Source of the DNA: Duncaniella sp. | GTDB taxonomy: Bacteria; Bacteroidota; Bacteroidia; Bacteroidales; Muribaculaceae | NCBI GenBank assembly: GCA_023664955.1 | Contig: JAMPEV010000004.1 | Coordinates: 1-42,329 of the forward strand | Reading direction: 5' to 3' | DNA: 42,329 bases | Shown: positions 5,307 through 25,147 of the stretch, piece by piece | Position numbering within the stretch: position 1 is the first letter of the stretch | How the letters are laid out: the number at the start of each line of letters is the position of its first letter | Position numbers and translations under genes: made by a program | The notes under the pieces: generated by a model | Seen by the model: the letters and a program-made list of their open reading frames with translations, nothing else | Told to the model about the DNA's origin: nothing | Databases searched by the model: none

Positions 5307-5404
5307 GATTGGATGATGAAAATATCATAGTTTTAACACTTTGATGTGAAAAATTTTGTGTGGACTTTCCGTGGGTGATTCTATATAGCGGCAGATTGAA
5401 TGAA

Positions 5405-5462
5405 GAAAAAAGCCTCTTCCCGGTGAGTGATTATTAAAAAATAATAGTGTCCGGGAAGAGGC
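5405..5462 (-). terminator. Terminator after dsbD
   Basis: A perfect 12-bp stem (GCCTCTTCCCGG at 5412-5423, CCGGGAAGAGGC at 5451-5462) has a 27-base loop containing a small inner AT hairpin. On the minus strand a run of T follows (complement of 5406-5411). It lies 75 bp past the dsbD stop and separates the redox locus from the TonB-receptor unit. Confidence 0.85.
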
Positions 5463-5537
5463 TGTGATATGTGTTTACCTATGTGTATATCAATTATAGT
5501 AGTGACTACTAAAAAAGGGACTTTTGATAATTGTTGC

Positions 5538-7574
5538 TTATTTTTTGTAATCTTTGATTCCTTTTTCGAGGAACTTGGTGAAGCGCGGGATATTCTCGTC
5601 GTAAGAGAATGGACCAGAGAGGAGTTTTCCGGAGTTGTTGAGAATTACGTAGTATGGTTGTGCATTGGCGTTGAATTTGTAACGCTGCAGATAGCTCCAT
5701 TTGTCACCATAAGTGCGAAGAGTTACTTTTTTGCCGTATTCTTCCACTTCCATAGGCTGAGGCAGCTTAGCTTTTTCGTCAACCATTAGCTTGATAACTA
5801 CGAAATTGTCCTCAATCATCGCTTTAACGTTGGCCTCATCGAGTACAGCCCCCTCCATCTTTCGGCAATTGACACATCCAAATCCCGAGAAATCGATAAG
5901 GACCGGTTTGCCGCTTTCAGCTGCGATTTTCATACCCTCTTCATAGTCATCATATTCCTTAAAACCGTCACCATATAGATTAAAATCCTGTGTGAACAGA
6001 GGTGGAACAAATGCGCTGACTCCCTTGAGAGGAGCGCCCCAAAGTCCGGGAATCAGATAAACGGTGAATGAAAGGGATGCGAGTGCAAGGAAGAAACGAA
6101 CCACCCCGATGCTACTATCGGCCGGGCCGTAGTGAGAGAAGTTAAATTTCCCCAACAGGTATATACCGAGAAGGGCAAACATCACAATCCAAAGAGCCAA
6201 GAAAGCCTCGCGGTCGAGGATGTGCCATCCGTATGCCAAATCGGCTACTGAAAGGAACTTGAGAGAGAGGGCGAGTTCCACGAAACCGAGCACAACTTTC
6301 AAGGTGTTCATCCAGCCGCCGGAGCGAGGAGCAGATTGGAGCATTGTGGGGAACATTGCAAAGAGCATAAACGGCAGTGCGAGTGCTGTCGAGAATCCAA
6401 GCATACCGATTGCCGGACCCCAAAGGTTGCCCATTGAGGCCGCTTCTACAAGAAGAGTGCCTATGATGGGACCAGTGCATGAGAATGACACCAATGTAAG
6501 GGTGAATGCCATAAAGAAAATAGAGAGAAGGCCTGTGGTGCGCTCAGCTGTGGCATCCATCTTATTAGCCCACGAAGAGGGGAGCTTTATGTCAAAAGCG
6601 CCGAAGAAAGAGATGGCAAAGACAACAAGGAGAAGGAAGAAAATAATGTTGCAGGTGGCAGATGTGGAGAGCGCATTGAGCGAGCTTGCGCCAAATAAGC
6701 CTGTGATAAGCAGACCGAGAGCCACATATATTATAATAATAGACAACCCGTAGATGCAAGCATCCTTAATTGACTTAGCGCGGTCTTTACCTTTTTTCAA
6801 GAAGAAGCTTACAGTCATAGGTATCATCGGCCATACACACGGTGTGAACAGAGCCACAAGACCACCGAGGAAGCAGGTGAAGAAGATGTACCAGAGAGAA
6901 GTGGTAGAGAAATCCTCAGCTGCACTCTCTTCATCGTAGGTCACGGGTGCCCAAAGGTTGCCTTGGCTCACTGAGGCAACGCCATTAGTAGTTGTGCTGT
7001 CGATAGCAGTTGTAAGTGCCGATGATTCAGTGGCAGAAGTTGGGTCATCGTTAGCTGCATCAACATTTGCGACGACTGTCTCTGTCGATTGTGGAGCTGC
7101 GGAGGCTGCTACTTTGGCTTTGCCGGTAAGAGTGAACTCAGAGCGTGATGGAGGCACGCAGTTCTCATCGTTGCAAGCCGAATTGACAATTTCAACACCG
7201 ATTTTAAAATCGGGTTTTGTCGCTGTAAACTTCTGAGTAATAGTCACACTACCTGTCCACCATGCGAGTTCCGCGCCGAAGAGATCGTCGAACTGGCGAT
7301 GAGGGGCTTTTGAAGGGTTGATTTTGCCATCGAGAGTAACACCGTCGAGGGTTGGGAATGTAACATCGAGAGGCTGAGGCCCTGCGTTGGGGTCCACATC
7401 GTTGGAATACATGTGCCATCCCGGTTCAATTGCTGCATTGAGTACCACTTCACCAGTGTTGTCGCCTGTCATGTTTATTTTAGCCGACCAACTAACCGGA
7501 TTCATTATCTGGGCGACAGCGGCGCAAACGGTGAGTAGAATAAGTGATGTTAAGAGAAATAATCTCTTTTTCAT
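5538..7574 (-). CDS. dsbD: DsbD-type transmembrane thiol:disulfide interchange protein
   Basis: 678 residues with all three DsbD modules. Residues 1-21 are a signal peptide. About 25-155 form the periplasmic DsbD-alpha domain with the Cys134/Cys139 pair (ACNDENC). A Ser/Thr/Ala linker leads to a polytopic CcdA-like domain (about 225-515, eight predicted helices) with Cys246 (FTPCVWP) and Cys366 (SFSCTGP). The C-terminal thioredoxin-like gamma domain (about 530-678) has Cys567/Cys570 in GCVNC. In this family electrons pass from cytosolic thioredoxin through the membrane cysteines to periplasmic thiol proteins. All six expected redox cysteines are present. The gene follows two WCGPC lipoproteins in the same orientation, which are the obvious electron acceptors. 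A terminator-like hairpin lies in the gap before it (7618-7652), so its expression may depend on readthrough. Confidence 0.93.
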   Translation of the reverse strand: MKKRLFLLTSLILLTVCAAVAQIMNPVSWSAKINMTGDNTGEVVLNAAIEPGWHMYSNDVDPNAGPQPLDVTFPTLDGVTLDGKINPSKAPHRQFDDLFGAELAWWTGSVTITQKFTATKPDFKIGVEIVNSACNDENCVPPSRSEFTLTGKAKVAASAAPQSTETVVANVDAANDDPTSATESSALTTAIDSTTTNGVASVSQGNLWAPVTYDEESAAEDFSTTSLWYIFFTCFLGGLVALFTPCVWPMIPMTVSFFLKKGKDRAKSIKDACIYGLSIIIIYVALGLLITGLFGASSLNALSTSATCNIIFFLLLVVFAISFFGAFDIKLPSSWANKMDATAERTTGLLSIFFMAFTLTLVSFSCTGPIIGTLLVEAASMGNLWGPAIGMLGFSTALALPFMLFAMFPTMLQSAPRSGGWMNTLKVVLGFVELALSLKFLSVADLAYGWHILDREAFLALWIVMFALLGIYLLGKFNFSHYGPADSSIGVVRFFLALASLSFTVYLIPGLWGAPLKGVSAFVPPLFTQDFNLYGDGFKEYDDYEEGMKIAAESGKPVLIDFSGFGCVNCRKMEGAVLDEANVKAMIEDNFVVIKLMVDEKAKLPQPMEVEEYGKKVTLRTYGDKWSYLQRYKFNANAQPYYVILNNSGKLLSGPFSYDENIPRFTKFLEKGIKDYKK

Positions 7575-7612
7575 GATAATATGGTGATTTTAATTAGACA
7601 ATCAAATCATCG

Positions 7613-7652
7613 ATGAAAAGTCCGGCAATATGCCGGGGGCATTGCCGGACTT
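7613..7652 (-). terminator. Intergenic terminator-like hairpin before dsbD
   Basis: A perfect 12-bp stem, AAGTCCGGCAAT (7618-7629) with ATTGCCGGACTT (7641-7652), has an 11-base loop. On the minus strand the stem runs into TTTTC. It sits 18 bp past the stop of the 367-residue lipoprotein gene and 43 bp before the dsbD start. It may stop most transcripts or protect the 3' end of the upstream message. Confidence 0.7.
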
Positions 7653-7670
7653 AATGGTATATTCCCGGTG

Positions 7671-8774
7671 TTATTTTTCAAGGAGTTCAGCGAGTTTAGC
7701 GTCAAGTTCCTTTTCATCATCGAAACGGCCCACCATGTTGCCTTCAGCATCGACAATGAACTTGGAGGGGATGTACATCACGGCATAATTGTCGGCGTTG
7801 TTTACAGGTTCATCGTAAACATGGGCATATTTTTCCATACCCATGCCGCTGTTAGAGATATAATCCTTCCAAGCGTTTTCATCGCGGTCAAGAGATACGC
7901 AGAGGACTTCGAGCCCCTTGTTATTATATTTCTCATAAACTTCCTTAACGTGGGGAAGAGAAGCGCGGCAGGGACCACACCATGTTGCCCAGAAGTCGAG
8001 AAGAACAACTTTGCCTTTCAATCCTGAAAGGGTAATGTCATTGCCATTTTGGTCCTTACCGGTGATTTCAGGAGCGGGTGAGCCGGGCTGGATTGATTCG
8101 AGCGCGCTGATATACTTTGCAGTTGCCTGGTCAGCGGCCTGAATTTCCGGAGCCCAGCTATTGTAAATCTCCTTGAGTTCATCAAGTGAGAGATCCATTT
8201 TAGCCATGCCCATGATCACGGGTGAATAGTAAGAATTGGGGTGAGTCTTCATAAAGTTGATTTTGGCATCCTTTACCTCATTCATGGCGGCGTCATACTT
8301 TGCATTGAACTCAGCGAGAGCTACAGAATCCTTCTGGATAGAATCGTAGATAGCGTAATATGGACGAATTGTTTCGTAAGCGGCAGCTTCGATTGCAGTT
8401 ATAGAGTCCATCTGCTGAGTGAGGGGAGAGCCGGTGACTTCAGCATTCTGGTAACTATCGCCTGTGAGAGCCACGGTAATCACACCGGGTTCAATCATCA
8501 TCTGACGTACTTTCTCATTGGCATTTTGCCGTTTGCCAAGGCTGATATATGCTGACTTTGGAATTTCGATGTTTCCGGCAAAAGAGAAAGTACCGTTGGC
8601 TACTACAGCACTGTCATTGACAGTAGAGTCAGCGGAAAGACGGTACATCAAGTAAACGGTTTCGCCATCGGCAGCGTCGGTCGTACCATTGATAGTATAT
8701 TCAGTAGAGGGTTTTGAAGAGCAAGACGCAATGAGAGCCATTGCTCCAAGACCGATAAAAATTTTTGTTTTCAT
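7671..8774 (-). CDS. DUF4369/TlpA-like thioredoxin lipoprotein (copy 2)
   Basis: 367 residues. The lipobox IAS-C gives lipidated Cys18, followed by Ser-Ser-Lys with no acidic pair, which suggests a periplasm-facing protein. The N-terminal half (about 25-125) is a DUF4369-type beta domain (YTINGTTDAADGETVYL, GTFSFAGNIE). A helical linker follows (about 125-225). The C-terminal TlpA/AhpC-TSA thioredoxin fold (about 230-367) has the active site WCGPC (Cys266/Cys269) and the cis-Pro loop YIPSKF. Such proteins normally reduce or isomerise disulfides on periplasmic substrates and are recharged by DsbD or CcdA. It is a diverged paralogue of the upstream 379-residue gene: same architecture, same WATWCGPCRA-LPHVKE active site. 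It has its own strong promoter at 8850-8881. Confidence 0.92.
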   Translation of the reverse strand: MKTKIFIGLGAMALIASCSSKPSTEYTINGTTDAADGETVYLMYRLSADSTVNDSAVVANGTFSFAGNIEIPKSAYISLGKRQNANEKVRQMMIEPGVITVALTGDSYQNAEVTGSPLTQQMDSITAIEAAAYETIRPYYAIYDSIQKDSVALAEFNAKYDAAMNEVKDAKINFMKTHPNSYYSPVIMGMAKMDLSLDELKEIYNSWAPEIQAADQATAKYISALESIQPGSPAPEITGKDQNGNDITLSGLKGKVVLLDFWATWCGPCRASLPHVKEVYEKYNNKGLEVLCVSLDRDENAWKDYISNSGMGMEKYAHVYDEPVNNADNYAVMYIPSKFIVDAEGNMVGRFDDEKELDAKLAELLEK

Positions 8775-8835
8775 TGATTGGTTTCTTTAGTGATAATTGT
8801 GGGGAGATGCGAAAAGTTAATTATTAAGAATGCCA

Positions 8836-8889
8836 AAAGAAATAGCCCCCAAAGTTAATGCTTTATTGTAACTTATGCAAATTGGGGGC
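8836..8889 (-). terminator. Terminator after the first thioredoxin lipoprotein
   Basis: On the minus strand GCCCCCAA (8889-8882) pairs with TTGGGGGC (8852-8845) around a 29-base loop, and is followed by the T-rich run TATTTCTTTT. It lies 41 bp past the stop of the 379-residue gene. The loop holds the promoter of the next gene. Confidence 0.7.
8850..8881 (-). promoter_or_regulatory. Strong Bacteroidota promoter for the second thioredoxin lipoprotein
   Basis: On the minus strand, TTTG (8878-8881), a 20-base spacer and TAACTTTG (8850-8857) match both consensus elements of the Bacteroidota housekeeping promoter. The start site would be near 8843, giving a leader of about 70 bases for the 367-residue gene. 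The element lies in the loop and 3' arm of the terminator hairpin at 8845-8889. Confidence 0.75.
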
Positions 8890-8929
8890 GACTTCTTTTT
8901 ATGAACTGCGGTAGGTATAAGCAAAAGGA

Positions 8930-10069
8930 TTACTTAAAAATTTCTTCGAGTTTCTTGTCAAGGTCTTCGTTTTTATCCATCTTACCAATGATTGTGCCAT
9001 CGGCAGCGATGAGATATTTGGTGGGAAGATAATGCACGGCATATTTGTCGCTTTGGTCGTTTGATTTGTCATAGCCGGTTAACTGACCTTGTGCGTCCTT
9101 TATGGTTTTGAGACCGCGGAGTATGTTATAGTAATTTTCCATGCCTTCCTCGACGATTACCTCTTTCCACTTTTCGGGCTTAGAGTCATCATCACCAACG
9201 CAGAACACTTCGAAACCTTTGTCGTGATACTTATTGTAAAGCTCCTTGACATGGGGAAGAGCCGCACGGCAAGGACCACACCAAGTAGCCCAGAAGTCAA
9301 CGAGAACAACTTTACCTTTGAGGTCGCTCAATTTAATTTCCTTGCCATCAGGGTTTGTACCAATCAAGTCGGGAGCGGGCATGCCAGGCTGAACTGCTTC
9401 GAGAGCTTTAATTTCAGAAGCGACCTCAGTGGCAGCGGCCTGAACTTCGGGAGTGAGGGCGGCGTAGGCATTCTTCATTTCTTCAAGGCTCATTTGACCT
9501 GTACGCATGTTGAGGAGGTCGGCGGTGTAGTATGACCCCGGATTGTTCTTGATAAACTCGTCAGTAGCTGCGGTGTAGAGTTTAACTAAAGAATCGCGTT
9601 GAGCTGAGAAAGCTGCGCGGGAAGATTCATCGGCATTCTGAATAGAATCGTTAAGAGCCCTAAGCTGGGTAGAGATGGGTTCAATGGTCTTCTCGTAGCT
9701 ATCGACTTCAGCTTGAGTTTTAGAACCTGACACAGCTACATTAGAGAAGTCATCGGCAGTGAGACCGGAGATTGAGATTTCAGAGGGTTCGAGGTAAAAG
9801 GGTGCATAGGTTTTGCTACCCCACTGTAGAGTACCGGTGTAGAGGGTTGCACGTGTGGGTATATCGATATTGCCGGTGAACGCGAATGTGCCGTTTGTAA
9901 TAACTGCGCTATCAGTTACACCGGAATCACCTACAGCGTAAGAAAGATAGATAGTCTGACCGTCAGCACCATCGATTGTGCCCTTAACATCATACTGGTT
10001 AACGGGACGAGAGTTACATGCTGCTAAAGCAGCGAGAACTCCGAGAGAAATGATTGGAAAAAGTCTCAT
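8930..10069 (-). CDS. DUF4369/TlpA-like thioredoxin lipoprotein (copy 1)
   Basis: 379 residues. The lipobox LAA-C gives Cys18, followed by Asn-Ser-Arg with no acidic pair, so it is probably retained on the periplasmic face. The order is DUF4369-like N-terminal domain (about 25-120, with YDVKGTIDGADGQTIYL), helical linker (about 120-225), then a TlpA-type thioredoxin domain (about 228-379) with WCGPC at Cys264/Cys267 and a LPTKYL cis-Pro loop. The expected role is disulfide reduction or isomerisation in the periplasm with electrons from the neighbouring DsbD. It follows the susD-like gene by 93 bp with a weak hairpin between them. I see no promoter of its own, so it is likely transcribed with the SusC/SusD genes. 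Confidence 0.92.
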   Translation of the reverse strand: MRLFPIISLGVLAALAACNSRPVNQYDVKGTIDGADGQTIYLSYAVGDSGVTDSAVITNGTFAFTGNIDIPTRATLYTGTLQWGSKTYAPFYLEPSEISISGLTADDFSNVAVSGSKTQAEVDSYEKTIEPISTQLRALNDSIQNADESSRAAFSAQRDSLVKLYTAATDEFIKNNPGSYYTADLLNMRTGQMSLEEMKNAYAALTPEVQAAATEVASEIKALEAVQPGMPAPDLIGTNPDGKEIKLSDLKGKVVLVDFWATWCGPCRAALPHVKELYNKYHDKGFEVFCVGDDDSKPEKWKEVIVEEGMENYYNILRGLKTIKDAQGQLTGYDKSNDQSDKYAVHYLPTKYLIAADGTIIGKMDKNEDLDKKLEEIFK

Positions 10070-10120
10070 TATTAATATGTTAATTTTAATTAGTTGTTAG
10101 TGATGTCCTAAGAGAGAAGA

Positions 10121-10159
10121 GGAGGGCGCACCAGCCCGACAGAGAAGATGCGCCACTCT
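10121..10159 (-). terminator. Weak hairpin after the ECF-regulated susD-like gene
   Basis: GGCGCA (10125-10130) pairs with TGCGCC (10149-10154). The stem extends through GAG/CTC across one bulged base, with an 18-base loop. On the minus strand the stem is followed by pyrimidine-rich sequence rather than a clean T run, so it may act as an mRNA stability or processing element more than a terminator. Confidence 0.4.
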
Positions 10160-10162
10160 CTA

Positions 10163-11671
10163 TCAATCGTTTAAGAAAGGCTTAAAATTAGGATTATTAT
10201 TAATTACGTTTTGGGGAATAGGGAACACCCAGAGCTTAGAGTCGGGAGAGAGAGTCATCGTGCGTCCGGCAAGGGTGCGTGTGATTGTCTCCTGCCAATC
10301 GGAATCTTGGACATTCCAACGCTTGCGGTTGACATAATTCCATATAGAGAACAGACCTTCTGACTGATAAGACATTTTGAGATACCTGATGGCAGAATCC
10401 TTATCGTTTACATTGCCCTGGAGAGCGGTGTACATGTCGGGACGAATTCTCTTAACGCGGACTATGTCGAGATAGCCCATAGCCTCATCATAATTTCCTT
10501 TACGGATAGCGTTTTCAGCTTTGATGAAATACATTTGGGTAGAGCGAAGACCAAAAGGAGGGAACCAATAGCTATTGCTACCTGATGTCATGATATAGCC
10601 GGGATCACCGAGACGTTTAATTGACAGACGGTCTCTCTCAGATTCATCGCGGCCGCGGGCAGAGTTGTCAAGGTACCACATATAAATGTGTCCAGGTTCG
10701 ATAAATGATTGAGCATATGGGGTTATACATGAGCTAATTAATGTGCCGTACATTGTGTAATAATCCTCATCACAAGCCATACGAGGACGATTGAACACCG
10801 GATAGTCCTCCAATGGAGAATCATCAGTCTTGCGAATCTGAGAATTAGTCAAAAGGCTATTGTAGTCAGTCACGGCACTGTTAGCTGCGAGAGCTTTATC
10901 GGCGTAAGAGGCGGCCTCTTCATATTTCTGCATAGACATTAGTACGATAGCTTTAACTGCATACATGGCAGCACGGCTAAAGCGAGTCTGGTTGATAGCA
11001 ATGTCAGGAAGGGCATCAAGAGCAATAGCTGCGTCAAGGTCGGCATTGAGTTTGGTATAGAACTCTTCCATCGTTACAGGAGCCGAGGGGGTCTTGATAT
11101 CCATATCCTCTGTAAAATAGCTGAGAGCGATGGTAGAGGATGCGTTAGCGGGATTGTAAGCGGGAGCAAATTTTTGGAGAGCGAGCCAGTGATAGTAAGC
11201 ACGGACAACGTATGCTTCAGCTTTAATGGCTGCTTTTTTACTTTCATCGCCGGTAGCATTGTCAATTTTGCTGATGATGGGGTTGGAGATACGACCTACG
11301 TAGTAGTAGCAGCCGTTGTACCAGTCATCGGTTTTTAAAAGTTCGGGCATATTTGCCACCCATTTTTCATTATCCCAAGTCCAACGGATAGACTTTGCCG
11401 TAGGAACAGCAACGTTAATCGATGTGGAAATCAAGGAATATGAATAAAGGTAATCGTTGCAAATGTCTGACATGTCATCACAGCCCATGCTTATACCATG
11501 GTCATAATCATATCCGGCAGGAGCGTTGAGGAGGAGTTCAAGGTCGCTAACCGAAGAGAGCAGGTTGTTACCTTTAGCGTCAATCTCGGTAAAATCGGAG
11601 CAAGAGGTCATAGTCATTGCTGATGTGACCATCAGGCCGATGAAATATTTTGAATTCATTCTAATATTCAT
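10163..11671 (-). CDS. SusD/RagB-family nutrient-binding lipoprotein (ECF/FecR locus)
   Basis: 502 residues. A lipoprotein signal ends at Cys24 (MTS-CSDFTE), with acidic residues right after the Cys that fit export to the cell surface. The all-helical SusD architecture is recognisable: a TPR-like region with AYVVRAYYHWLALQKF near 155, a later segment with FIKAENAIRKGNYDEAMGYL near 375-395, and the conserved end with LWVFPIPQNVINNNPNFK. SusD-like proteins sit as a lid on a SusC barrel and capture the substrate. The gene follows the SusC-like gene by 10 bp. I chose the first Met; Met5 would also give a good signal peptide. The SusD fold is also used for non-glycan ligands, and there are no glycosidases nearby. 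Confidence 0.93.
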   Translation of the reverse strand: MNIRMNSKYFIGLMVTSAMTMTSCSDFTEIDAKGNNLLSSVSDLELLLNAPAGYDYDHGISMGCDDMSDICNDYLYSYSLISTSINVAVPTAKSIRWTWDNEKWVANMPELLKTDDWYNGCYYYVGRISNPIISKIDNATGDESKKAAIKAEAYVVRAYYHWLALQKFAPAYNPANASSTIALSYFTEDMDIKTPSAPVTMEEFYTKLNADLDAAIALDALPDIAINQTRFSRAAMYAVKAIVLMSMQKYEEAASYADKALAANSAVTDYNSLLTNSQIRKTDDSPLEDYPVFNRPRMACDEDYYTMYGTLISSCITPYAQSFIEPGHIYMWYLDNSARGRDESERDRLSIKRLGDPGYIMTSGSNSYWFPPFGLRSTQMYFIKAENAIRKGNYDEAMGYLDIVRVKRIRPDMYTALQGNVNDKDSAIRYLKMSYQSEGLFSIWNYVNRKRWNVQDSDWQETITRTLAGRTMTLSPDSKLWVFPIPQNVINNNPNFKPFLND

Positions 11672-11681
11672 TTCTAAATGT

Positions 11682-14600
11682 TTATAGGTTAAGATTTAGA
11701 CCTACCATGTAGGAAGACGGATTGCGGATACCGAGAGTTTCGGGGTCAACGCCGAGGTCGTTGGCAGTCCAGATAGCTTTCGGGTTGGTCACTTGGAAAC
11801 GGAAAGTCATCAGATTGACTCCAAATCGGCGAGTCCAAGCTTCAGGCACTGTGTAACCGAGAGTGATGTTACGGATTTTGAGGAATGATGCGTTGTGAAC
11901 GCTTCGGTTAGCGTAGGTGGTCTGAGAACTTGAAGATATAGTGGCATATTGGTCCTTGCCGGGGATGTCGGTCTGGTTATCGGGAGTCCAAGAATCTTTA
12001 AAATAAAGTTTCATAGGAGCGCTATATGATCCGGCGAAAGTTTCAGCAAAAGGTAGAGCACGCATCTTGTGGCCACCATAGTAAGCGAGAACCACACCAA
12101 GGCTTATGCCGTTCCATTTCCATGTGTTGTCCATGCCGATGATGTATTTCGGGTCAGACTGTCCCGAAAATTCAAGGCATTCAACGCTACGGTTAGACAC
12201 TGTAGTTGTTTTACCACCATTCTCATCGTAAAAAAGAGTCATACCCTGCTGACCTTCAATGTCAGAAATGCCGGCGAATCGGTAGCTCCAAAGGGCATTA
12301 ACAGGGTACCCCACCTTATATGGAGTAGAAATCAACTGGTAGGCCCTGGTGGCGTCATTTTCCACATCAGTAACTTCATTTTTATTATAAGAGAAGGTCA
12401 GGCTGGTGGTCCATGAGAAATCACGACGTGCTCTGGGGATAAACCAGTCGTAGGAAGCCACGAGTTCAATACCGGTGTTTTTGATTGAAGCCGCATTAGC
12501 GACGATTGAGGAGAAACCGGAAGTCGGATCAAGGTTGAGATTATTGAAAATATCCTTACCAACTTTGTTGTAGAAATCAAACGAACCGCGTAGACGATAG
12601 TTGAAGAAACTGAAATCGAGACCTACGTTAGTGGTGCGGTTCTGCTCCCAGCGTAAATCAGGGTTAGCGGGCGAGGTCACTGAACCGAATGGCTGGTTGG
12701 TGTACTCATTAATGTCACCGGCGGAGGCGGTCATCACAGAAGTTGCACCTTGGAAGATGTTACCTGTCACACCATAGGAGAATCGAAGCTTCAAGAAACT
12801 GAGCCAAGGTGTGAATTCTCGGGCAAATTCCTCGTTGTGAATATTCCAGCCTGCACCAACTGACCATAACGGCTTGCCGCGGAATTCAGAGTTAAGACCA
12901 AACACGTCAGCATAGTCCTTACGGAAAGAGCCAAAGATATTATATTTTTCGTCGTATGTGTAAGTCGCGTTAGCGTATCCGGAACCGTAACGGTGGTGAA
13001 CCTCCGGCACAATTCCCATCCCATCCTGAAGATATGGCACGAATGCAAATTGATTAGAGGGGAAACCTCCCATAAATGACATGTAGTCAGGGTTATAGTT
13101 CATTAAGCTCAATGTGCCGAAATCTATGGTATGAGTAGAACTTGACTGAAGCTGTTCGTCATAACCAAGGGCGAGAGCCTTTGTGCCTTTGATTTTTGTT
13201 TCACGGAACTCAAAACCGGCAATGGCTGCGATGTCATGTTTGCCGAAGGTGCGAGAGTAGTTCAATTGGCCACGAGCGGTCCAATAGTTGCCGTTACGTT
13301 GTGTGGTCTGAAGGAAACCGCCAGACTCTGGGGTGAGGTACTTGTAGCCGCCTTTGCCATCGCTTACGGTGAAGGCGTTTCGTAACACACGTGAAGCGTG
13401 GCTCTGTTCATTGGCATATTGCTTTGAGTTGGTCATTGTGGTCTCATAGATGAACTGGGCATTAGCAGTGAGACCGGGAATGATTTTGAAAAGGAGGTCG
13501 GCATGATAGCGCATGTCCTGGCGGTGGGTGGTGAGGGTGTTGTTGTACATTTCTTCTACCGGGTCTTCGCCAAGGTCATGGAAAGCAGGTGCTTCGAGAG
13601 TGAATCTATTACCGCAATACCAACCGTAGTTGCGGTAGCGGGTGCCATCCTCGTTATAGAAAGGCATGTAGGAAGTGAACTTCCATGGGCTGCTGGAGCA
13701 AGTGCTATAGTCATTACCGAATTCGCGAGAGTCGGAAATGATAGAGTTGATAGATAGTGTCGCAGTCAACCATTTAGCCACATCGTAGCTGCCTTTATAC
13801 GAAATGTTTAGCCAGTCATACTTGTGGTTGATTATGCCGGAATTGTCTTTCTTATAGTTGATTACGATATTGTTACGCGAATTTTCAGATGCACTGCGAA
13901 GAGCGAGGTTGTATTGCTGGATTACTTGACGACGGTATAAGGCGTCGGCATATTCCTGAGCATAGTTATTACCTTTAAATTGCTCAATTTGGCGGTTAAG
14001 TTCATCACGAGTGATTTGACCCGAAGCCAGTTGGAGATAGGCGTATTCAAGAGGGGTAGGGTTGAGATAACCACCATCGATATACATCTGTTCCATCATG
14101 ATGTTAGTGGTGGGATTATTTTTGTTACCGTCCTCAGTGAAGAAATAGTATTCAAGCCAATTACTTTCCGCAGCTATCTGTTCCTCGGGATTCATGTAGA
14201 AATTGTCATGGTAGTCCATGTTCTTCTTTTCATACCATGTGAGATTGGCTGAGAAGTCAATGTCGATTTTACCTTTCTTCTTTGCGCTCTTTGTGGTAAC
14301 AACGATGATACCGTTAGCAGCGCGTGCACCATAGATAGCGGAAGCGGCAGCATCCTTAAGCACGTTTACGCTTTCGATGTCGTAGGGGTTGAGGTCCTCA
14401 ATGTCTCCTTCGATTGGGAGGCCGTCGACAACGAGAAGGGGAGAAGTAGAGCCGTTCAAAGTACCCACACCACGGATGATGGGTTTGCCGCCGTAGGTAG
14501 AGAGACCAGCCACGCGGCCTTCGAGGTTATCGAGGAGGTTAAGGGTGTAACGTTCATCGAGTTTGTCAGCGCTGATGGTTGCGGTAGCACCGGTCATTTT

Positions 14601-15215
14601 CTCCTTGCTGACATCGGCATAACCGGTCACTACGACTTCGCTCATCATTGTGGCATGAGTTTCGAGGTCGAAGCGAATGTTATTTTGATTTTTTGGGGTT
14701 ACTTTTACAGAAGCCGGTTTCATGCCCACGAAAAGACATGTCACGATGGGGTTGAGGGCGTTAACATCTTTAATAGTGAAATGACCATCAATGTCCGACA
14801 CAGTTACGTTAGTTGTGCCGTCAATCATGATTGTTGCACCGGCGAGAGGCTCATTCTCTTCAAGGTCGTAAACGATACCCTTAATTGTGCCTTGAACGTA
14901 ATCAACATTCATGTTGGGGGTCTTGAGGATGACGCTTTTATCAACTACCTCATAATCGAGGAACATATTGATGGAAATCACACGGTTAAGCAACTGGTCG
15001 AGTGTCAAGCCGGTATAATTACAAGTGACCGGCGACTTTGCGTGTTTAAGGATATCCTTCTTGTAGACAAATTCGAGTCCAGTCTCCTGCTTGAGAGTCT
15101 TTATGACCTCTTCAGGATTAGCTTTGTCAAACTGGGCGTTGTAGGTGCGGGCATAACACTCAAGAGGTATGAGCATCGACACGGCCAGAATGAGGACCAT
15201 AAGTACTTTTTTCAT
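11682..15215 (-). CDS. SusC/RagA TonB-linked outer membrane protein with STN signalling domain
   Basis: 1177 residues from the chosen ATG at 15215; an upstream in-frame ATG at 15248 would add 11 residues in front of the obvious signal peptide MKKVLMVLIL. Domains in order: signal (1-22), STN short N-terminal domain (about 25-100, EEVIKTLKQETGLEFVYKK), carboxypeptidase-regulatory-like domain (about 108-185), TonB-box-like SEVVVTGY (192-199), SusC plug (about 210-330, with LLVVDGLPIEGD and AASAIYGARAANGIIVVTT), then a long barrel. In this family an STN domain contacts a FecR-type anti-sigma factor in the periplasm, so the transporter also reports ligand binding. That fits its position 76 bp after fecR. 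It pairs with the SusD-like gene downstream. Confidence 0.94.
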   Translation of the reverse strand: MKKVLMVLILAVSMLIPLECYARTYNAQFDKANPEEVIKTLKQETGLEFVYKKDILKHAKSPVTCNYTGLTLDQLLNRVISINMFLDYEVVDKSVILKTPNMNVDYVQGTIKGIVYDLEENEPLAGATIMIDGTTNVTVSDIDGHFTIKDVNALNPIVTCLFVGMKPASVKVTPKNQNNIRFDLETHATMMSEVVVTGYADVSKEKMTGATATISADKLDERYTLNLLDNLEGRVAGLSTYGGKPIIRGVGTLNGSTSPLLVVDGLPIEGDIEDLNPYDIESVNVLKDAAASAIYGARAANGIIVVTTKSAKKKGKIDIDFSANLTWYEKKNMDYHDNFYMNPEEQIAAESNWLEYYFFTEDGNKNNPTTNIMMEQMYIDGGYLNPTPLEYAYLQLASGQITRDELNRQIEQFKGNNYAQEYADALYRRQVIQQYNLALRSASENSRNNIVINYKKDNSGIINHKYDWLNISYKGSYDVAKWLTATLSINSIISDSREFGNDYSTCSSSPWKFTSYMPFYNEDGTRYRNYGWYCGNRFTLEAPAFHDLGEDPVEEMYNNTLTTHRQDMRYHADLLFKIIPGLTANAQFIYETTMTNSKQYANEQSHASRVLRNAFTVSDGKGGYKYLTPESGGFLQTTQRNGNYWTARGQLNYSRTFGKHDIAAIAGFEFRETKIKGTKALALGYDEQLQSSSTHTIDFGTLSLMNYNPDYMSFMGGFPSNQFAFVPYLQDGMGIVPEVHHRYGSGYANATYTYDEKYNIFGSFRKDYADVFGLNSEFRGKPLWSVGAGWNIHNEEFAREFTPWLSFLKLRFSYGVTGNIFQGATSVMTASAGDINEYTNQPFGSVTSPANPDLRWEQNRTTNVGLDFSFFNYRLRGSFDFYNKVGKDIFNNLNLDPTSGFSSIVANAASIKNTGIELVASYDWFIPRARRDFSWTTSLTFSYNKNEVTDVENDATRAYQLISTPYKVGYPVNALWSYRFAGISDIEGQQGMTLFYDENGGKTTTVSNRSVECLEFSGQSDPKYIIGMDNTWKWNGISLGVVLAYYGGHKMRALPFAETFAGSYSAPMKLYFKDSWTPDNQTDIPGKDQYATISSSSQTTYANRSVHNASFLKIRNITLGYTVPEAWTRRFGVNLMTFRFQVTNPKAIWTANDLGVDPETLGIRNPSSYMVGLNLNL

Positions 15216-15291
15216 TGTGTAGAAATTAATTAATAATGTGATAAGCAATTGGTTATTTGATATGTAAAGAAACTTTCGTTATTATAGTTAT

Positions 15292-16461
15292 CTATTGTGG
15301 CGATATTGTTACTTTGTTGCCGTTGACTGAGAACCGGAGACCACCGCATTTTTCAAGGATTGCCATGACGGTTTTGAAATCAGAGTATCGAGGGATGCTT
15401 CCCATGAACACGGTGTCCTTCAAGCCTTCGTCGGTGAATTCATATTTGAAATCATACCATCGGCAAAGGTCGCGCATAATATTTGCTAATGGTTGCTCCT
15501 CGAAGACGAATCGTCCATGACGCCACCCGGTTATTGCTTTTGGGTCGACGACACGCATGTCTACTTTCATATCTTTGCGGTTGAAAAGTGCTTGATGTCC
15601 CGGTGAAATAAGCACCTCTCCCGATGGATTCTCAATGCGAGATATGGATATTGAACCTTTTTCGAGAGTGGTGTAGATGTAAGGGTCATCGCTGTATGCG
15701 CGGATATTGAAGAGAGTTCCGTAAACTTTCACTACTTGTTTGTCAGTTTCGACGAAGAATGGACGATTAGTGTCCTTCTTTACGCTGAAATAAGCCTCTC
15801 CGGAGAGTTTAACCCTTCGTTCGCTTGACTGGAAGGCTTCCGGATAGATGAGCATTGATTCGGAATTGAGCCAGACCTCAGTGCTATCCTCAAGTGTGAT
15901 TTTGAATTCACCACCACGCGGCACGTCGATGCAAAGGTCGTGTGAAGATTGGGAGGAGAAGGAGGATGGGATATCCGGTTCTTTTTTTATATTTAATGTG
16001 TCGTCTGCAGTTAGGCGGTATATCGCACCGGTGTTGGTAATCAGACGGGCCTTGGTGGAACCGGGGCGTATCTCTTGTTGCTCATTATTTGTGTCGATAG
16101 AATCGACGAGCTCTCTGAGGGCCATGAATTGGTCGGGTGAGCTGACGGTTTTATTACTGAAGAGGAAAAATCCTGCAGAAAGCAAAACTATAATAATAGC
16201 GGCAGCGGCAGCATATTTGCGCCAGGTGGCATGACGTATGGCAGAGATGCGCATCTTCATATCATTTTTCGGGCGTTCGACAGCCACGAGAGAGCGACGC
16301 AAAATCTGACGGGCCACATAATCAGGGTCGGAAAGACGCTCAATCAAGGCACGTCGCTCAGCGTCGTTCCCTGCCCATTCCTCCAAAGCTGCTCGTTCCT
16401 TGGGTGAACATTTCCCTAATGATAGGCGATATAATAGTAATCTTACTGATTCCATTTTCAT
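15292..16461 (-). CDS. FecR-family anti-sigma factor
   Basis: About 389 residues from the ATG at 16461; an earlier in-frame ATG at 16506 adds an unlikely Pro/Phe/Tyr-rich leader, and an ATG at 16455 is equally possible. The N-terminal cytoplasmic region (SPKERAALEEWAGNDAERRAL) resembles the sigma-binding anti-sigma domain. One transmembrane helix follows (YAAAAAIIIVLLSAGFFLF). The periplasmic part has the FecR domain (DVPRGGEFKITLEDSTEVWLNSESML, split here as two motifs; then GEAYFSV and FNIRAYSDD) and a C-terminal DUF4974-type domain. It should hold the ECF sigma factor at the membrane and release it when the STN domain of the downstream SusC signals. It is the first gene of the minus-strand operon and is divergent from the sigma gene. 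Confidence 0.93.
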   Translation of the reverse strand: MKMESVRLLLYRLSLGKCSPKERAALEEWAGNDAERRALIERLSDPDYVARQILRRSLVAVERPKNDMKMRISAIRHATWRKYAAAAAIIIVLLSAGFFLFSNKTVSSPDQFMALRELVDSIDTNNEQQEIRPGSTKARLITNTGAIYRLTADDTLNIKKEPDIPSSFSSQSSHDLCIDVPRGGEFKITLEDSTEVWLNSESMLIYPEAFQSSERRVKLSGEAYFSVKKDTNRPFFVETDKQVVKVYGTLFNIRAYSDDPYIYTTLEKGSISISRIENPSGEVLISPGHQALFNRKDMKVDMRVVDPKAITGWRHGRFVFEEQPLANIMRDLCRWYDFKYEFTDEGLKDTVFMGSIPRYSDFKTVMAILEKCGGLRFSVNGNKVTISPQ

Positions 16462-16551
16462 TTGCTTATACTGGTAAAAGGGGAAGGGTGGAGAAAAGTA
16501 TATCAAATTTTCAGAAAATTTTCAATTTTTTTAGCAAAATGTAGTTTAACG

Positions 16552-16582
16552 TTTGAATTTAGCTTTAAATTATTTACTTTTG
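16552..16582 (+). promoter_or_regulatory. Promoter of the ECF sigma factor gene
   Basis: TTTG at 16552-16555, a 19-base spacer and TACTTTTG at 16575-16582 match the Bacteroidota TTTG-N19/20-TAnnTTTG consensus exactly. The expected start site, a few bases past 16582, falls at or next to the GTG start codon at 16587. No equally good minus-strand promoter for fecR is visible in the shared 125-bp interval. Confidence 0.75.
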
Positions 16583-16586
16583 CAAG

Positions 16587-17204
16587 GTGTATGACTACAA
16601 CTATATATATGGTAAATTCATAGCGGGTGATGTTAATCCGTTTTATGAAAATCTGTATCCCGGATTGCTCGTGTATGCCTCTCGTCAGCTCGGGGATGAA
16701 TTGTCGTACCTTGCCGAGGATTGTGTGCAGGATGCAGTAATGAGTTCTTACACAAATCGTCACGAGTTTAAAACATCAATGGCGTGGTATTCGTATATAT
16801 TAAAATGTATATACCACAATACCATCGCTTTGCTTCGGAAGGATAATTCGAGGGCAAATTATCTTGACAGTGGGGCAATAGAGGAGGAAATTCCGGGTCA
16901 TGATGTGGCGATGCTTGAGCAGGAAACTATGGATATGCTTTATTCGGCAATTGATTCATTGCCTGAGAAATATCGTGAATTGTTAAGGCTAAGCTACTTT
17001 GAGGGATTGAAAACTGCGGAGATAGCTGAGAGGCTTTCGGTGGCTGAGATCACGGTGAAAAAATGGAAGGCAAATATATTGAATTTGCTGCGGGAACAGT
17101 TCCGTGAATTACCCGATTATTATGATGATGAAGTTGGTATCGATGGAAGATTGATGATGGTGATTATGATAATTATGTCGCAATATGCAATAACGAATCA
17201 ATAA
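16587..17204 (+). CDS. ECF-type RNA polymerase sigma factor
   Basis: 205 residues. Region 2 (about 10-85) includes YLAEDCVQDAVMSSY and a helix with WYSYILKCIYHNTIALLRK. Region 4 (about 115-172) is the helix-turn-helix LPEKYRELLRLSYFEGLKTAEIAERL followed by SVAEITVKKWK (described here as two motifs). The C-terminus carries an unusual short hydrophobic patch (LMMVIMIIM, 189-197). It should direct polymerase to promoters of the divergent fecR-susC-susD genes, under control of the FecR anti-sigma. The start is GTG at 16587; the only nearby ATG (16591) is out of frame and opens a 10-codon ORF. With the promoter ending at 16582, the message would have essentially no leader. It is the only plus-strand protein gene in the window that I accept. 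Confidence 0.92.
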   Translation: MYDYNYIYGKFIAGDVNPFYENLYPGLLVYASRQLGDELSYLAEDCVQDAVMSSYTNRHEFKTSMAWYSYILKCIYHNTIALLRKDNSRANYLDSGAIEEEIPGHDVAMLEQETMDMLYSAIDSLPEKYRELLRLSYFEGLKTAEIAERLSVAEITVKKWKANILNLLREQFRELPDYYDDEVGIDGRLMMVIMIIMSQYAITNQ

Positions 17205-17207
17205 GAA

Positions 17208-17252
17208 AACCACAACCGATGTCGCTCTTGGACATTGGTTGTGGTTATTTTA
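17208..17252. terminator. Bidirectional terminator between the sigma gene and GH43 gene
   Basis: AACCACAACC (17208-17217) pairs with GGTTGTGGTT (17237-17246). An inner ATGTC/GACAT stem (17219-17223 with 17231-17235) extends it around a 7-base loop. T-rich sequence follows on the plus side (ATTTTATA) and on the minus side (TTTTCTTAT), so it can end both convergent genes. Confidence 0.88.
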
Positions 17253-17259
17253 TAGCTTA

Positions 17260-18318
17260 TTATTTTGACCAGTGGCGTTCGAGCCGAGTAGCTTCTTCGG
17301 GTGTTATTTGGATTACCGAGCCATGCTTAGGGCTACGGAAGTTAGTGGCTTTCATTTTACCTTCGTTGAAACGTCCGAGAGGAGTGAAAGTTTTGAAATC
17401 AGAGGTTTCGATGAACCCGAAGTTGTGAGGGCGGATACCGTAGATGTCGTACATCACTACCCATTTGTCTTCGCCGATACGTTTCCATGTGTTGGGGGCC
17501 TCGCAACCGCGACTCTCAGTGTCAATCTGTTGATTAAATGACTGAGTGTAGTTTTTGTTGATTTCGTTGGATGTCATGTAGCGAATTCCGGCAGGATTCT
17601 CCTGAGCCACGTAGGTCATAAAGTAACCGCCGTCGGGCATAGGGCAAATGTCGGCATCAAGCACGGGAATTGTGCTGTCTGGGTGTTCAAACAGCAATTT
17701 GGGCACAGAAGTTAGATGGGTGTAATCATCATCAACGTATGCCCAATACACGTTGGTGTGGTCCTTCATGTCACGACGGATGGTGAAATAGAGCATCAAT
17801 TTGCCAGCCTTGTCATCGTAGGATGTCTCCGGAGCCCAGAAGCAGCAGATATCGCCAAATTCCTCCGGAAATGCTTTGTCGATTCTCACGAGTGAACGAG
17901 TCCAGTTAATCAGGTCGTAACTCTTCATCAGGATTATGCCGCGGTTGTTGCCCCATCCATATTTCTTGCCGTCACGCTCCCATTCAGTGTCACGGAATCC
18001 CTTTTGCTGGCCGAAGATGTGGAGATCGGTCATTGAAAGGTAAAACGCGCCATCCGGGCCGCGGAAAATGTGCGGGTCGCGGATACCATGCTGTTCGGCG
18101 ATGGTATCACCCGCTATTACCGGATTTCCGTCATTTACAGCGGTGAATTCATAACCGTCATGGCTTGTTGCCATGAAAAGCGAATGAGTCGAATCGTTGA
18201 AGAAAGTGAAGAGATACGCTCCCATATCCTTCTCTTCAGGGACTTTTGGGGAGGATGCTGATACTGTCAGAATACTGATGGCTAAAAGAGCAGCGATTGA
18301 AGCAAGAAATTTTCGCAT
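17260..18318 (-). CDS. Secreted glycoside hydrolase family 43 enzyme
   Basis: 352 residues with a Sec signal peptide (about 1-22, no lipobox), so probably periplasmic. The five-bladed propeller motifs of GH43 are visible: RDPHIF with Asp81 as candidate general base, WAPET (161-165), VLDADI with Asp221/Asp223 as candidate pKa modulator, and GCEAPNTW with Glu273 as candidate general acid. GH43 enzymes invert configuration and mostly remove alpha-L-arabinofuranose, beta-xylose or related side chains; the subfamily cannot be fixed by eye. It is the last gene of the SusC-SusD-GH30-GH43 set, 98 bp after GH30 with a hairpin in between, and ends at a bidirectional terminator. Together with a GH30 it suggests trimming of side chains from an oligosaccharide before or after backbone cleavage. 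Confidence 0.87.
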   Translation of the reverse strand: MRKFLASIAALLAISILTVSASSPKVPEEKDMGAYLFTFFNDSTHSLFMATSHDGYEFTAVNDGNPVIAGDTIAEQHGIRDPHIFRGPDGAFYLSMTDLHIFGQQKGFRDTEWERDGKKYGWGNNRGIILMKSYDLINWTRSLVRIDKAFPEEFGDICCFWAPETSYDDKAGKLMLYFTIRRDMKDHTNVYWAYVDDDYTHLTSVPKLLFEHPDSTIPVLDADICPMPDGGYFMTYVAQENPAGIRYMTSNEINKNYTQSFNQQIDTESRGCEAPNTWKRIGEDKWVVMYDIYGIRPHNFGFIETSDFKTFTPLGRFNEGKMKATNFRSPKHGSVIQITPEEATRLERHWSK

Positions 18319-18333
18319 GACTTAGATATTAAG

Positions 18334-18405
18334 AGAGGTGGACGCGAAGCAAAGTGAGATATTTCTTATCTTTTGACGTTGATTTTGATGCTTGCGTCCG
18401 CCTCT
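18334..18405 (-). terminator. Long imperfect hairpin between GH30 and GH43 genes
   Basis: AGAGG-T-GGACGC (18334-18345) pairs with GCGTCC-G-CCTCT (18394-18405), and AAGC (18347-18350) pairs with GCTT (18390-18393) past one bulged G. The loop is 39 bases. No clean T run follows on the minus strand, so partial termination or transcript processing is as likely as full termination. Confidence 0.5.
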
Positions 18406-18416
18406 GTATGAATGGT

Positions 18417-19913
18417 TTATTTCTGTACGAAGCTATTGAATGAATGAGGTGCGAGGGTGGCGTTTAGGTATTTGCCGTTAAGTTCAACGCTCACATTTAT
18501 CTCATCGTCGTTCATATTACCGGCTACTACCACATATTTCCCTTCGGGGGTCATGGCAACGAGCACGGGAGTCTTCTTTTCACCTGTGGGTCTGAAACCG
18601 ATAATCTTGGCACCTTCCTTGATGAAATTACTGTAATGGCGATAGGCATACCATTCAGGCACATATTCGTAGGAACGATCGGCAGAGTTTACTTTTACGA
18701 GGGCATTTTGTTTCCATCCCCAGCGGCTTTCGCCCTTGTCGGGAAGGATGAGATTCCAGTTGTTGTATTCGGAGCAACCGTTACCGATGTAGTGGTTGAT
18801 TAGATGGAAAGTATGTTCCCCGGCCTTCCAGTCCATATTGCCGTTGCCACATTCGCTTTCGGTGCTGATGTAGCGATAATCCGGATATTCTTGGCGTATG
18901 CGAGGAAGGATTTGACCGCCCTCCCACTGGAAACCTATACCCTTGATATTGTCTTTCATACGAGCATCGGAGAGGAGCCCCTTCACGTGGTCATAGCGGT
19001 TGGTGTTAAATGTTCCGAGACAAAGTTCCACATCGGGATTTTTTGCGGCGAGGGTAGGGGACAGGTATTCGATATTGAATCGGATAATATCGTCGGACAC
19101 CCACGGACACCCGGGATATGGGGTGTAACTGTAAGCTTCGTTTTGGTACATCACCATTCCGATGTTGACACCCTGTTCTTTGTAAAGGTCGATAAATTTG
19201 CAGAACATGTCGGCATAGCATTGGAGATAGCGCGGGTCCTGAATGAAATAGCTCTGCACGGCAAGTCGGCGCGGGAAGAGTCGCTTGTCGGGGTTGACTT
19301 GTTCGTTGTCCGAACGGTCACCGTCGCCAAAGAGCAAATTATCCATTTTGGGATCCATATCATTGTAGCGATTGCTCTGCACTGCATAGTGGTTGTTAGC
19401 TTTCATCCAAGCCGGAGGACTCCAAGGAGACATCCAGAAAGTCATGTCGGGGCAGTATTTCTGAGCGGCGCGGATATAGGGGATGATTGTAAGCTTATCA
19501 CGCTCGATATTGAAGTGTTTGAGGTCGAAATCCCCCTGCACATCACTGCAAGAATACCATTCGAGTGCATAATCATTGGCATTCATTGATATGCGTCCCA
19601 TTGAGAAACCGAGTTCACCGTCAGGGGCGAAGGCGCGGCTTAGAATCTCATCCTGCTCGTGGCGAGAGAGCATACAAAGAGCACGCCAGTCCTGTTCATT
19701 GAATGTGGTGCCCCAGCGTCGGAAAGTCACTATCGGTTCATCAGCGTTAATTTTCACCACGTCAGAAACTGCGGGTTCTTTGGATGCTTTGACCACTGTT
19801 TTTGACTCATTCCAGCGGTTGGTATCAGTAGTGGAGTAATGATTGAAAGTCTGAGCCATTACCGAACCACACATTATACTCGCCAAAGCGGTAGTTAATA
19901 TTATTTTATTCAT
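18417..19913 (-). CDS. Glycoside hydrolase family 30 enzyme
   Basis: 498 residues with a Sec signal (1-20, ending VMA-Q). The TIM-barrel core shows GH30 landmarks: RRWGTTFNEQDW (65-76), MSPWSPPAWMK (161-171), acid/base Glu259 in YQNEAY, and candidate nucleophile Glu352 in STESECG. The barrel is followed by the small beta-sandwich typical of clan-A GH30 (about 425-498). GH30 members retain configuration and include beta-1,6-glucanases, beta-1,6-galactanases, xylanases and beta-glycosidases; I cannot assign the subfamily with confidence. It follows the PUL susD by 250 bp across a terminator-like hairpin, and precedes the GH43. It is probably the backbone-cleaving enzyme of this locus, on a beta-linked glycan. 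The acid/base motif reads Asn-Glu-Ala rather than the commoner Asn-Glu-Pro. Confidence 0.88.
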   Translation of the reverse strand: MNKIILTTALASIMCGSVMAQTFNHYSTTDTNRWNESKTVVKASKEPAVSDVVKINADEPIVTFRRWGTTFNEQDWRALCMLSRHEQDEILSRAFAPDGELGFSMGRISMNANDYALEWYSCSDVQGDFDLKHFNIERDKLTIIPYIRAAQKYCPDMTFWMSPWSPPAWMKANNHYAVQSNRYNDMDPKMDNLLFGDGDRSDNEQVNPDKRLFPRRLAVQSYFIQDPRYLQCYADMFCKFIDLYKEQGVNIGMVMYQNEAYSYTPYPGCPWVSDDIIRFNIEYLSPTLAAKNPDVELCLGTFNTNRYDHVKGLLSDARMKDNIKGIGFQWEGGQILPRIRQEYPDYRYISTESECGNGNMDWKAGEHTFHLINHYIGNGCSEYNNWNLILPDKGESRWGWKQNALVKVNSADRSYEYVPEWYAYRHYSNFIKEGAKIIGFRPTGEKKTPVLVAMTPEGKYVVVAGNMNDDEINVSVELNGKYLNATLAPHSFNSFVQK

Positions 19914-20019
19914 CAGAATGTTAATGTTATAGAGATTGGTTATTTATGATTCTTCATGTGAAAAGTATGTTCAACGCAATGAAGTTATCTTTTTCTGATG
20001 TAAAGATACAAATTAATTT

Positions 20020-20064
20020 AATAATAGGCTTTGCCGATAGGATTTTTTTGCCAACGGCAAAGCC
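20020..20064 (-). terminator. Terminator-like hairpin after the PUL susD
   Basis: A 10-bp stem, GGCTTTGCCG (20027-20036) with CGGCAAAGCC (20055-20064), has an 18-base loop and is followed on the minus strand by TATTATTAAATT. It lies 100 bp past the SusD stop. In Sus-like loci such a hairpin commonly lets SusC/SusD messages outnumber those of the downstream enzymes. A TTAATTTG sequence (20009-20016, minus) is a one-mismatch -7 box that could serve GH30. Confidence 0.7.
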
Positions 20065-20163
20065 CATACCAAGTAGTAACAAAAACTGAACCTAATTTAC
20101 CTCAGAAGATTACCATTACAAAAACTTGATGCTATTACATGAAAAAATCTAATAAAAATGCTT

Positions 20164-21903: not shown

Positions 21904-21927
21904 GCTAAATGGTTGTAAAGTTAATCT

Positions 21928-24933: not shown

Positions 24934-24934
24934 G

Positions 24935-25006
24935 AACATCGATTAAAGTTAATAACTTGGTTTATTTGCTGTGACAAAGTTACCAGCAGTTATTATCATC
25001 GATGTT
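24935..25006. repeat. Inverted repeat around the PUL susC promoter
   Basis: AACATCGAT (24935-24943) plus AATAACT (24951-24957) recurs in inverted form as AGTTATT (24988-24994) plus ATCGATGTT (24998-25006). The inner spacers differ, seven bases against three. The right arm covers the position where a -33 element should be, and the left arm covers the start-codon region, so the predicted -7 box and start site lie between the arms. It could be a regulator-binding site; chance cannot be excluded by eye. Confidence 0.45.
24975..24982 (-). promoter_or_regulatory. -7 element of the PUL susC promoter
   Basis: On the minus strand TAACTTTG matches TAnnTTTG exactly. At 19-21 bases upstream no TTTG is present; that place is occupied by the CATCGATG of the inverted repeat. 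This fits a promoter that needs an activator such as the adjacent hybrid two-component regulator. The leader would be about 30 bases. Confidence 0.6.
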
Positions 25007-25147
25007 AAGCTATTTTCCAAAAAGGTTTATTAGCAGAATAATTTGCCTTTTGAGAAGTGGATTTATCAATCTTTTTATGTTAGTAAATATTACATTAATA
25101 TATAAATCGTCAGTATATCAATGAATTATATTTTGTACGTTATGCCA

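Follow-up and report, generated by a model that had tools for sequence, protein, structure and literature searches.

A 42,329-nucleotide contig of Duncaniella sp. (family Muribaculaceae; JAMPEV010000004.1), hereafter the window, carries between positions 5538 and 17204 a SusC/SusD (SusCD) transport locus that is accompanied by thiol-redox genes. Comparison with related loci revealed that SusCD with thiol-redox partners is a conserved unit, whereas SusCD with the membrane reductase DsbD is not. Our favoured interpretation, to which we give slightly less than an even chance, is an uptake module of a distinct SusCD clade with thiol-redox accessory genes, in which disulfide-bearing cargo would be reduced in the periplasm via DsbD or via an nDsbD-tailed protein, designated c6. 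The window is one contig of 42 kb from a 2.18-Mb metagenome-assembled genome (MAG) that is 82.7% complete. A preliminary description, made from the sequence alone, had listed an extracytoplasmic function (ECF) sigma factor, FecR, SusC, SusD, two DUF4369/TlpA-like WCGPC proteins (TlpA-B and TlpA-A) and a six-cysteine DsbD; Pfam and NCBIfam profiles confirmed all seven genes, with their coordinates and families.

Thiol-redox partners of the SusCD clade

Twenty-six loci of this SusD clade in the genus, the window included, were compared with control SusCD loci. A redox gene lies on the same strand as the SusCD pair, no farther than 2.5 kb away, at 21 of the 26, and at none of the 11 usable controls, which come from the same genus (Fisher p 5e-6). 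In this 26-versus-11 comparison the pairing of SusCD with thiol-redox genes is more frequent than expected by chance. The pairing described earlier for the window is thereby supported, thiol-redox proteins being recurrent partners of the clade. Of 36 SusD rows, 26 entered the comparison, and the other 10, most of them weak or partial matches, were left out; the controls were 15 loci of an unrelated SusD2 type, from which four with less than 2.5 kb after SusD were dropped. The redox genes of the clade comprise a TlpA-DUF4369 type, another TlpA type, a secreted thioredoxin of about 362 residues, and c6. The secreted-looking thioredoxin carries WCGPC; a different branch of the SusCD clade (L095, L097, L098, L099, L101 and L102) has its gene in third position, and three of these six proteins were assigned by Pfam.

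Polymer-degrading enzymes are few in the clade, in line with the preliminary description of the window locus. Among the matches listed for 28 same-strand genes after SusD at clade and c6 loci (the first 25 of 36 families), there were one glycoside hydrolase (GH) of family GH95 and one peptidase each of the S9, M60 and trypsin-like types. Many glycosidases, by contrast, follow the control SusD genes, where GH97, GH88, GH13, GH76, GH31, GH125 and GH127 were found among the matches listed (the first 25 of 34 families) for 35 of 36 neighbour genes scanned, L143:1-1670 being left out.

An orthologous ECF-FecR-SusC-SusD-TlpA module is present in five relatives (G054, G130, G117, G093 and G543). All five keep the divergent ECF gene, FecR, SusD and a SusC with 57-82% identity, together with between one and three TlpAs. 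Of the 397 family genomes, 6 contain a SusD matching at E 1e-120 or better, and these five are among them. On the other strand, an aromatic amino acid lyase and an amidohydrolase, resembling histidine utilization genes, adjoin the module in G130 (L005 3165-5882), G117 (L006 15293-18103) and G543 (L088 1580-4300); the assignment was made by Pfam for L005 and L088 and by clustering for L006.

In the window, TlpA-B (8930..10069, - strand) and TlpA-A (7671..8774, - strand) are probable lipoproteins, each combining DUF4369 with a TlpA/ResA-like domain that matches AhpC-TSA/Thioredoxin_8. Both contain WCGPC, and the CxxC and P336, which we take to be the cis-proline before the last strand, are invariant among 12 aligned proteins, so that the thioredoxin-fold match, the WCxxC motif and the conserved proline of TlpA/ResA proteins are all present. 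Acidic residues after the lipobox mark surface export in Bacteroidetes. Both TlpAs show by eye a lipobox cysteine that is not followed by acidic residues, and therefore probably face the periplasm.

The SusD-like lipoprotein (10163..11671, - strand; PF14322, PF07980) lies next to a SusC/RagA-family TonB-dependent transporter (11682..15215, - strand), which scores 585 bits against TIGR04056 (cut-off 368). This SusC had been described as an STN-SusC. STN is significant in the SusC of L036 (7.8e-10, above the Pfam cut-off) and reaches 1.3e-5 in L009 (below it), and the diverged STN-like N-terminal region of the window protein gives E 0.19, far below the cut-off, with 0.03 in L005 and no row for L004. 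Cysteines, counted in matches above set lengths and bit scores, have a median of 2 in clade SusCs (n=23) versus 1 in controls (n=11; p 0.008), and of 6 in clade SusDs (n=25) versus 10 in controls (n=15). There is no invariant cysteine across 10 aligned SusCs.

DsbD and the nDsbD-tailed protein c6

The window DsbD (5538..7574, - strand) contains the three domains DsbD_N (PF11412), DsbD_TM (PF02683) and Thioredoxin_7 (PF13899) and the three corresponding cysteine pairs, C134/C139 in nDsbD, C246/C366 in the membrane domain and C567/C570 in the C-terminal thioredoxin-like domain, whose roles we assign by analogy with E. coli DsbD. Against the NCBIfam model for DsbD the protein reaches 164.9, under the cut-off of 330. 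It is the single DsbD_TM match in the window's genome, at the 82.7% completeness given above. DsbD is nearly universal in the family, being present at E 1e-3 or better in 138 of 149 genomes (108 of 109 of good quality) and in 27 of 27 genus genomes. The conserved SusCD-TlpA-DsbD neighbourhood suggested by the preliminary description was upheld only in part. Judged by the rule set there, conservation of the linkage in related genomes, the SusCD-TlpA link stands and the DsbD link falls: DsbD lies on a different contig from the module in all five relatives, one of which (G093) is fragmented into about 260 contigs. No DsbD was found in the stretches fetched around the relatives' modules.

Genes of one cluster, whose L020 member is a DUF6155 gene, adjoin DsbD in seven of the nine DsbD surroundings examined, those of the genus, and the gene matching this cluster in the window's genome sits on another contig. 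These observations suggest that DsbD was relocated in the lineage of the window. A chimeric origin, with nDsbD taken from c6, was considered and rejected: in comparison with 12 relatives, sequence identity declines in parallel for the N-terminal, membrane and C-terminal parts, and the window DsbD shows no sign of a c6-derived nDsbD. Six of the 27 genus genomes (G142, G548, G540, G550, G073 and G545) possess an extra, stand-alone nDsbD gene of about 160 residues directly upstream of DsbD, of which the L119 copy (7827-8309) was analysed with Pfam.

In G054, G130, G117 and G093, four of the five relatives, the last TlpA is followed by the gene for c6, a secreted-looking protein of about 650 residues with a C-terminal DsbD_N, and in the window DsbD occupies the place that c6 holds there. 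No c6 was found elsewhere in the window's genome, again at 82.7% completeness. A pattern-based scan of one genome per species over 84,980 species yielded 17 c6 loci, three of which are the seed contigs of G054, G117 and G093, distributed over several Bacteroidales lineages, Pinibacter, Chitinophaga and one MAG labelled Opitutaceae. Apart from L045, a 3.4-kb contig with no room for neighbours, the 16 contigs (including the three seeds) have on the same strand around c6 a SusC in 16 of 16 cases, SusD in 15, FecR in 11 and a CxxC TlpA in 13. In L089, L093, L110, L112 and L113, c6 directly follows SusD with no TlpA.

DsbD_N is present in all 15 full-length c6 proteins, in which four cysteines are invariant: C628/C633 in nDsbD, and a CxC formed by C150/C152 in the N-terminal region. 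No other Pfam family matched more than one of the 15 members at E up to 1. Among solved structures, the sole entry matched other than those of nDsbD scored no better than chance (E 0.8), and the nDsbD entries gave E 0.46-0.8. A ThuA/amidotransferase-like fold of the N-terminal region, considered from a by-eye resemblance, was dropped for want of a Pfam or above-chance structure match. A stand-alone nDsbD gene lies within the c6 cluster of Pinibacter (L044), and a Bacteroidales MAG contig (L046, 8046-14097; the same contig as L117) has c6 genes in several pieces and, next to them on the opposite strand, both a full DsbD and a separate nDsbD gene. Therefore, a DsbD-type component recurs at these clusters although DsbD itself does not; of the DsbD step in the originally described chain, the linkage of the full protein is not conserved and the DsbD-type domain survives as the DsbD_N of c6.

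The c6 cluster of the MAG labelled Opitutaceae (Verrucomicrobiota), with two TlpAs, spans L043 8819-13062 and could reflect gene transfer or a wrongly binned contig. Prolyl oligopeptidase-family (S9) genes adjoin two c6 clusters: L036 (13403-18402) has a pair of them on the other strand, and L093 (4187-6379) has one on the same strand, 117 bases downstream.

Transcription signals and surroundings of the locus

FecR, SusC, SusD, TlpA-B, TlpA-A and DsbD follow one another in this order on the - strand, and the ECF sigma factor gene (16587..17204; TIGR02937 above and TIGR02985 below cut-off) diverges from these six on the + strand, an arrangement that amends the otherwise correct gene set of the preliminary description. 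ECF and FecR thus stand beside the transporter as in Fec-like systems, with the ECF gene divergent. FecR (15292..16461, - strand; PF04773, PF16344) encodes a FecR-type anti-sigma factor. An element with a TATAC core precedes it in 9 of 14 aligned upstream regions; a matrix was built from these nine with the window left out for scoring, giving eight sites, and with L004 (cut at the element), L007, L089, L090 and L098 excluded. The eight-site matrix places the window's ATTTGATATACTTTTCTCC copy (16490..16508, - strand) first, at 21.0 bits versus 11.9 for the next best site in the window. FecR-SusC-SusD-TlpA-B may thus be transcribed from ATTTGATATACTTTTCTCC, a candidate ECF-dependent promoter. 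In front of DsbD the best score of the ECF element is 1.6 bits, so that direct control of this gene by ECF, also considered, is not supported. A further promoter-like element, found by pattern match, lies directly 5' of the ECF gene (16552-16582).

A vegetative-type promoter-like element, TTTG-N20-TAACTTTG, was found by pattern match before TlpA-A (8850..8881, - strand). TAnnTTTG is the -7 element of Bacteroides, and it occurs 75-105 bases before an A-type TlpA in all five tandem-TlpA modules, where shuffles give 4-10% each. Upstream of TlpA-B, the 130 bases searched contain no -7 element in any of the five, three of whose start points (L004, L005 and L006) are not at ATG; in L004, TAAATTTG lies farther up in the SusD-TlpA-B gap, and in L088 a -7 element precedes the third TlpA and not the second. 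Before DsbD, a -7 element was found within 130 bases in 17 of 22 relatives (20 of the genus, two of another genus) and not in the window. Because the window DsbD has no -7 element of its own and TlpA-A has one, DsbD would be read together with TlpA-A, and the two may form one transcription unit. The hairpin between them (7618..7652, - strand; fold of 7601-7675, -25.7 kcal/mol, z -4.10) could be a weak terminator or an intercistronic stem. Hairpins also precede c6 in L004 (z -4.56) and L007 (z -5.74), and are not clear in L005 (z -1.62) and L006 (z -0.94). The region 3' of DsbD (5395..5540, - strand), with a strong hairpin and a T run (-33.7 kcal/mol, z -6.84), is likely the end of the transcription unit.

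The statement that the locus contains no glycosidase is valid for the interval itself, as a Pfam scan found no carbohydrate-active enzyme between 5538 and 17204; the linked enzymes expected of a polysaccharide utilization locus (PUL) are thus missing there. A terminator-like hairpin 3' of the ECF gene (17208..17246, + strand; z -7.93) separates it from a convergent GH locus, and the statement does not extend to that neighbour, which begins 55 bases past the interval. This separate, ordinary-looking SusCD locus (17260-29209) includes a hybrid two-component sensor, a GH30 and a GH43/32-like protein, the nearest NCBIfam model of the GH30 being an endo-1,6-beta-glucanase, below cut-off. Farther on, genes named by eye as an SLC13-like transporter, an aldo-keto reductase bearing ferredoxin-type motifs and a membrane protein of the multi-[4Fe-4S] kind stand in a row (29246-34034) and could be a redox group. 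They are followed by a SNF2-like protein, also named by eye (34070-36565), whose C-terminal part (34070-34688) contains a long low-complexity NSENPE-like repeat.

Proposed mechanism, alternatives and known systems

SusCD systems import oligomeric nutrients, and DsbD hands electrons from thioredoxin to periplasmic CxxC proteins. By analogy with ECF/FecR-SusC biology, the ECF/FecR pair would turn on FecR-SusC-SusD-TlpA-B once SusC senses its ligand. SusCD would then import a disulfide-bearing substrate, most likely a cysteine-containing peptide or glycopeptide, and the two TlpAs would reduce this cargo in the periplasm, so that it could be unfolded, cut or used. The electrons would come from cytosolic thioredoxin via DsbD, which in the window stands directly behind TlpA-A and, judging from the promoter elements, is probably transcribed from the vegetative-type promoter of that gene. 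In the relatives, c6 provides an extra nDsbD domain, which could relay electrons. A putative disulfide-bearing imported substrate fits the observations best. A more speculative idea, which we regard as possible but rather doubtful, is that these loci represent a class of outer-membrane importers investing reducing power in the disulfide-rich peptides or glycopeptides they take up, with c6 as a dedicated periplasmic protein (its own nDsbD and a second invariant CxC), or the window's recruited DsbD, feeding cargo-opening TlpAs.

Several observations weigh against the reduction of imported cargo. The HMMs (hidden Markov models) of the 26-versus-11 comparison were trained partly on the test loci, which are related by descent; a redox neighbour is missing at five of the 26 clade loci, and L092, one of the 21 redox-gene matches, has no CxxC. 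DsbD adjoins the module in one of six orthologous modules and is known to do so from one MAG contig, and the G543 module has three TlpAs with neither c6 nor DsbD beside them. The protein c6 is rare: with a threshold of E 1e-20 and at most three candidates scored per genome, it was found in 6 of the 393 genomes of the order, at least three of the six being already among the 17 loci. Its N-terminal region of about 500 residues matches no Pfam family. As for transcription, TTTG-N20-TAACTTTG is weak alone (two window matches versus 0.52 expected, with 11 of 100 shuffles reaching two), the second A-type TlpA of G543 has no -7 element, five of the 22 relatives' DsbD genes also have none, and one of the 17 elements is implausibly near the start (-9). 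The hairpin standing between TlpA-A and DsbD points the same way, though only four T follow its stem.

Some of these facts suit another account, in which DsbD came to lie beside the module by coincidence and a housekeeping DsbD feeds the SusCD-TlpA unit from anywhere in the genome. We give this account a sizeable minority chance. The near-universal presence of DsbD, its location on another contig in all five relatives with the module, the intervening hairpin and the absence of any chimera sign in the window DsbD are all consistent with it. Against it speak the position of the window DsbD, where four of the five relatives have an nDsbD-domain protein, its lack of the -7 element that precedes DsbD in 17 of the 22 relatives, and the full DsbD and stand-alone nDsbD adjoining broken c6 genes in L046. 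The TlpA-DsbD junction could also be an assembly or binning artefact, as the single incomplete MAG and the absence of the junction from all other genomes examined would allow; however, the junction is well inside the 42-kb contig, GC content changes without an abrupt step (0.50, 0.47 and 0.43 in 1-kb bins), the two genes agree in strand, and the genome has no other DsbD_TM match, so that we consider an artefact very unlikely.

The TlpAs and DsbD could instead maintain the cysteines of the module's own SusC, SusD and FecR, an option already raised in the preliminary description. The slightly higher cysteine content of clade SusCs agrees with this, but the option gains little from the comparison and becomes less likely because SusC has no invariant cysteine and clade SusDs are poorer in cysteine than the controls; we rate it as highly improbable. 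Alternatively, the redox genes might guard surface or periplasmic proteins from oxidative damage, possibly together with iron or haem uptake, and no disulfide nutrient would be involved. The membership of SusC in the SusC/RagA family of nutrient importers and the ECF/FecR control, which suggests ligand sensing, speak against such a role, which we hold to be unlikely. It draws support from a 2026 preprint (PMC13404670), in which DUF4369-thioredoxin lipoproteins near TonB transporters in Muribaculaceae are associated with high-fat diet and roles in reactive oxygen species and iron are proposed for them, and from a DUF4369 gene within the iron-stimulon table of PMC10434189, although the present locus is not described in the parts of these two sources covered here.

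The clade bears on how SusCD loci are interpreted. SusCD systems are usually read as glycan importers, with substrates guessed from the linked enzymes; partnership with thiol-redox genes points instead to substrates of a different class, such as peptides with disulfides or glycoproteins of the mucin type, and suggests that periplasmic reducing power is used in nutrient uptake. The protein c6, a region of about 500 residues without a Pfam family fused to nDsbD within SusCD clusters of several Bacteroidota lineages, offers a concrete, testable subject for these ideas.

Among known systems, the lipoproteins of PMC13404670 share with the window's TlpAs the same domain pair, the same bacterial family and nearby TonB transporters, while the main text of that preprint does not contain the word DsbD and its section 8 includes neither an ECF/FecR-SusCD module nor an nDsbD fusion. 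A literature search at the level of titles and abstract openings, with partial coverage, found no description of SusCD-TlpA-DsbD or of the nDsbD fusion. The window SusC has its best PDB matches in 8ypt/8ypu, for which the literature search found no paper. It also matches the RagA structure 6sli (E 2.3e-66), and the peptidases near some members of the clade are a further likeness to RagAB and other SusCD peptide importers; we know of no TlpA or nDsbD partners of RagAB. With DsbD and its TlpA/ResA/CcmG partners, the locus shares a six-cysteine DsbD with the expected domains and WCGPC TlpA-like proteins. The usual partners of DsbD serve disulfide isomerisation or cytochrome c maturation, whereas the window's genes are linked to an outer-membrane importer. 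With the canonical SusCD PUL, it shares adjacent susC and susD genes, ECF/FecR control and further downstream lipoproteins, and it differs in having thiol-redox genes where the control loci of the same genus carry GH97, GH88, GH13, GH76 and others.

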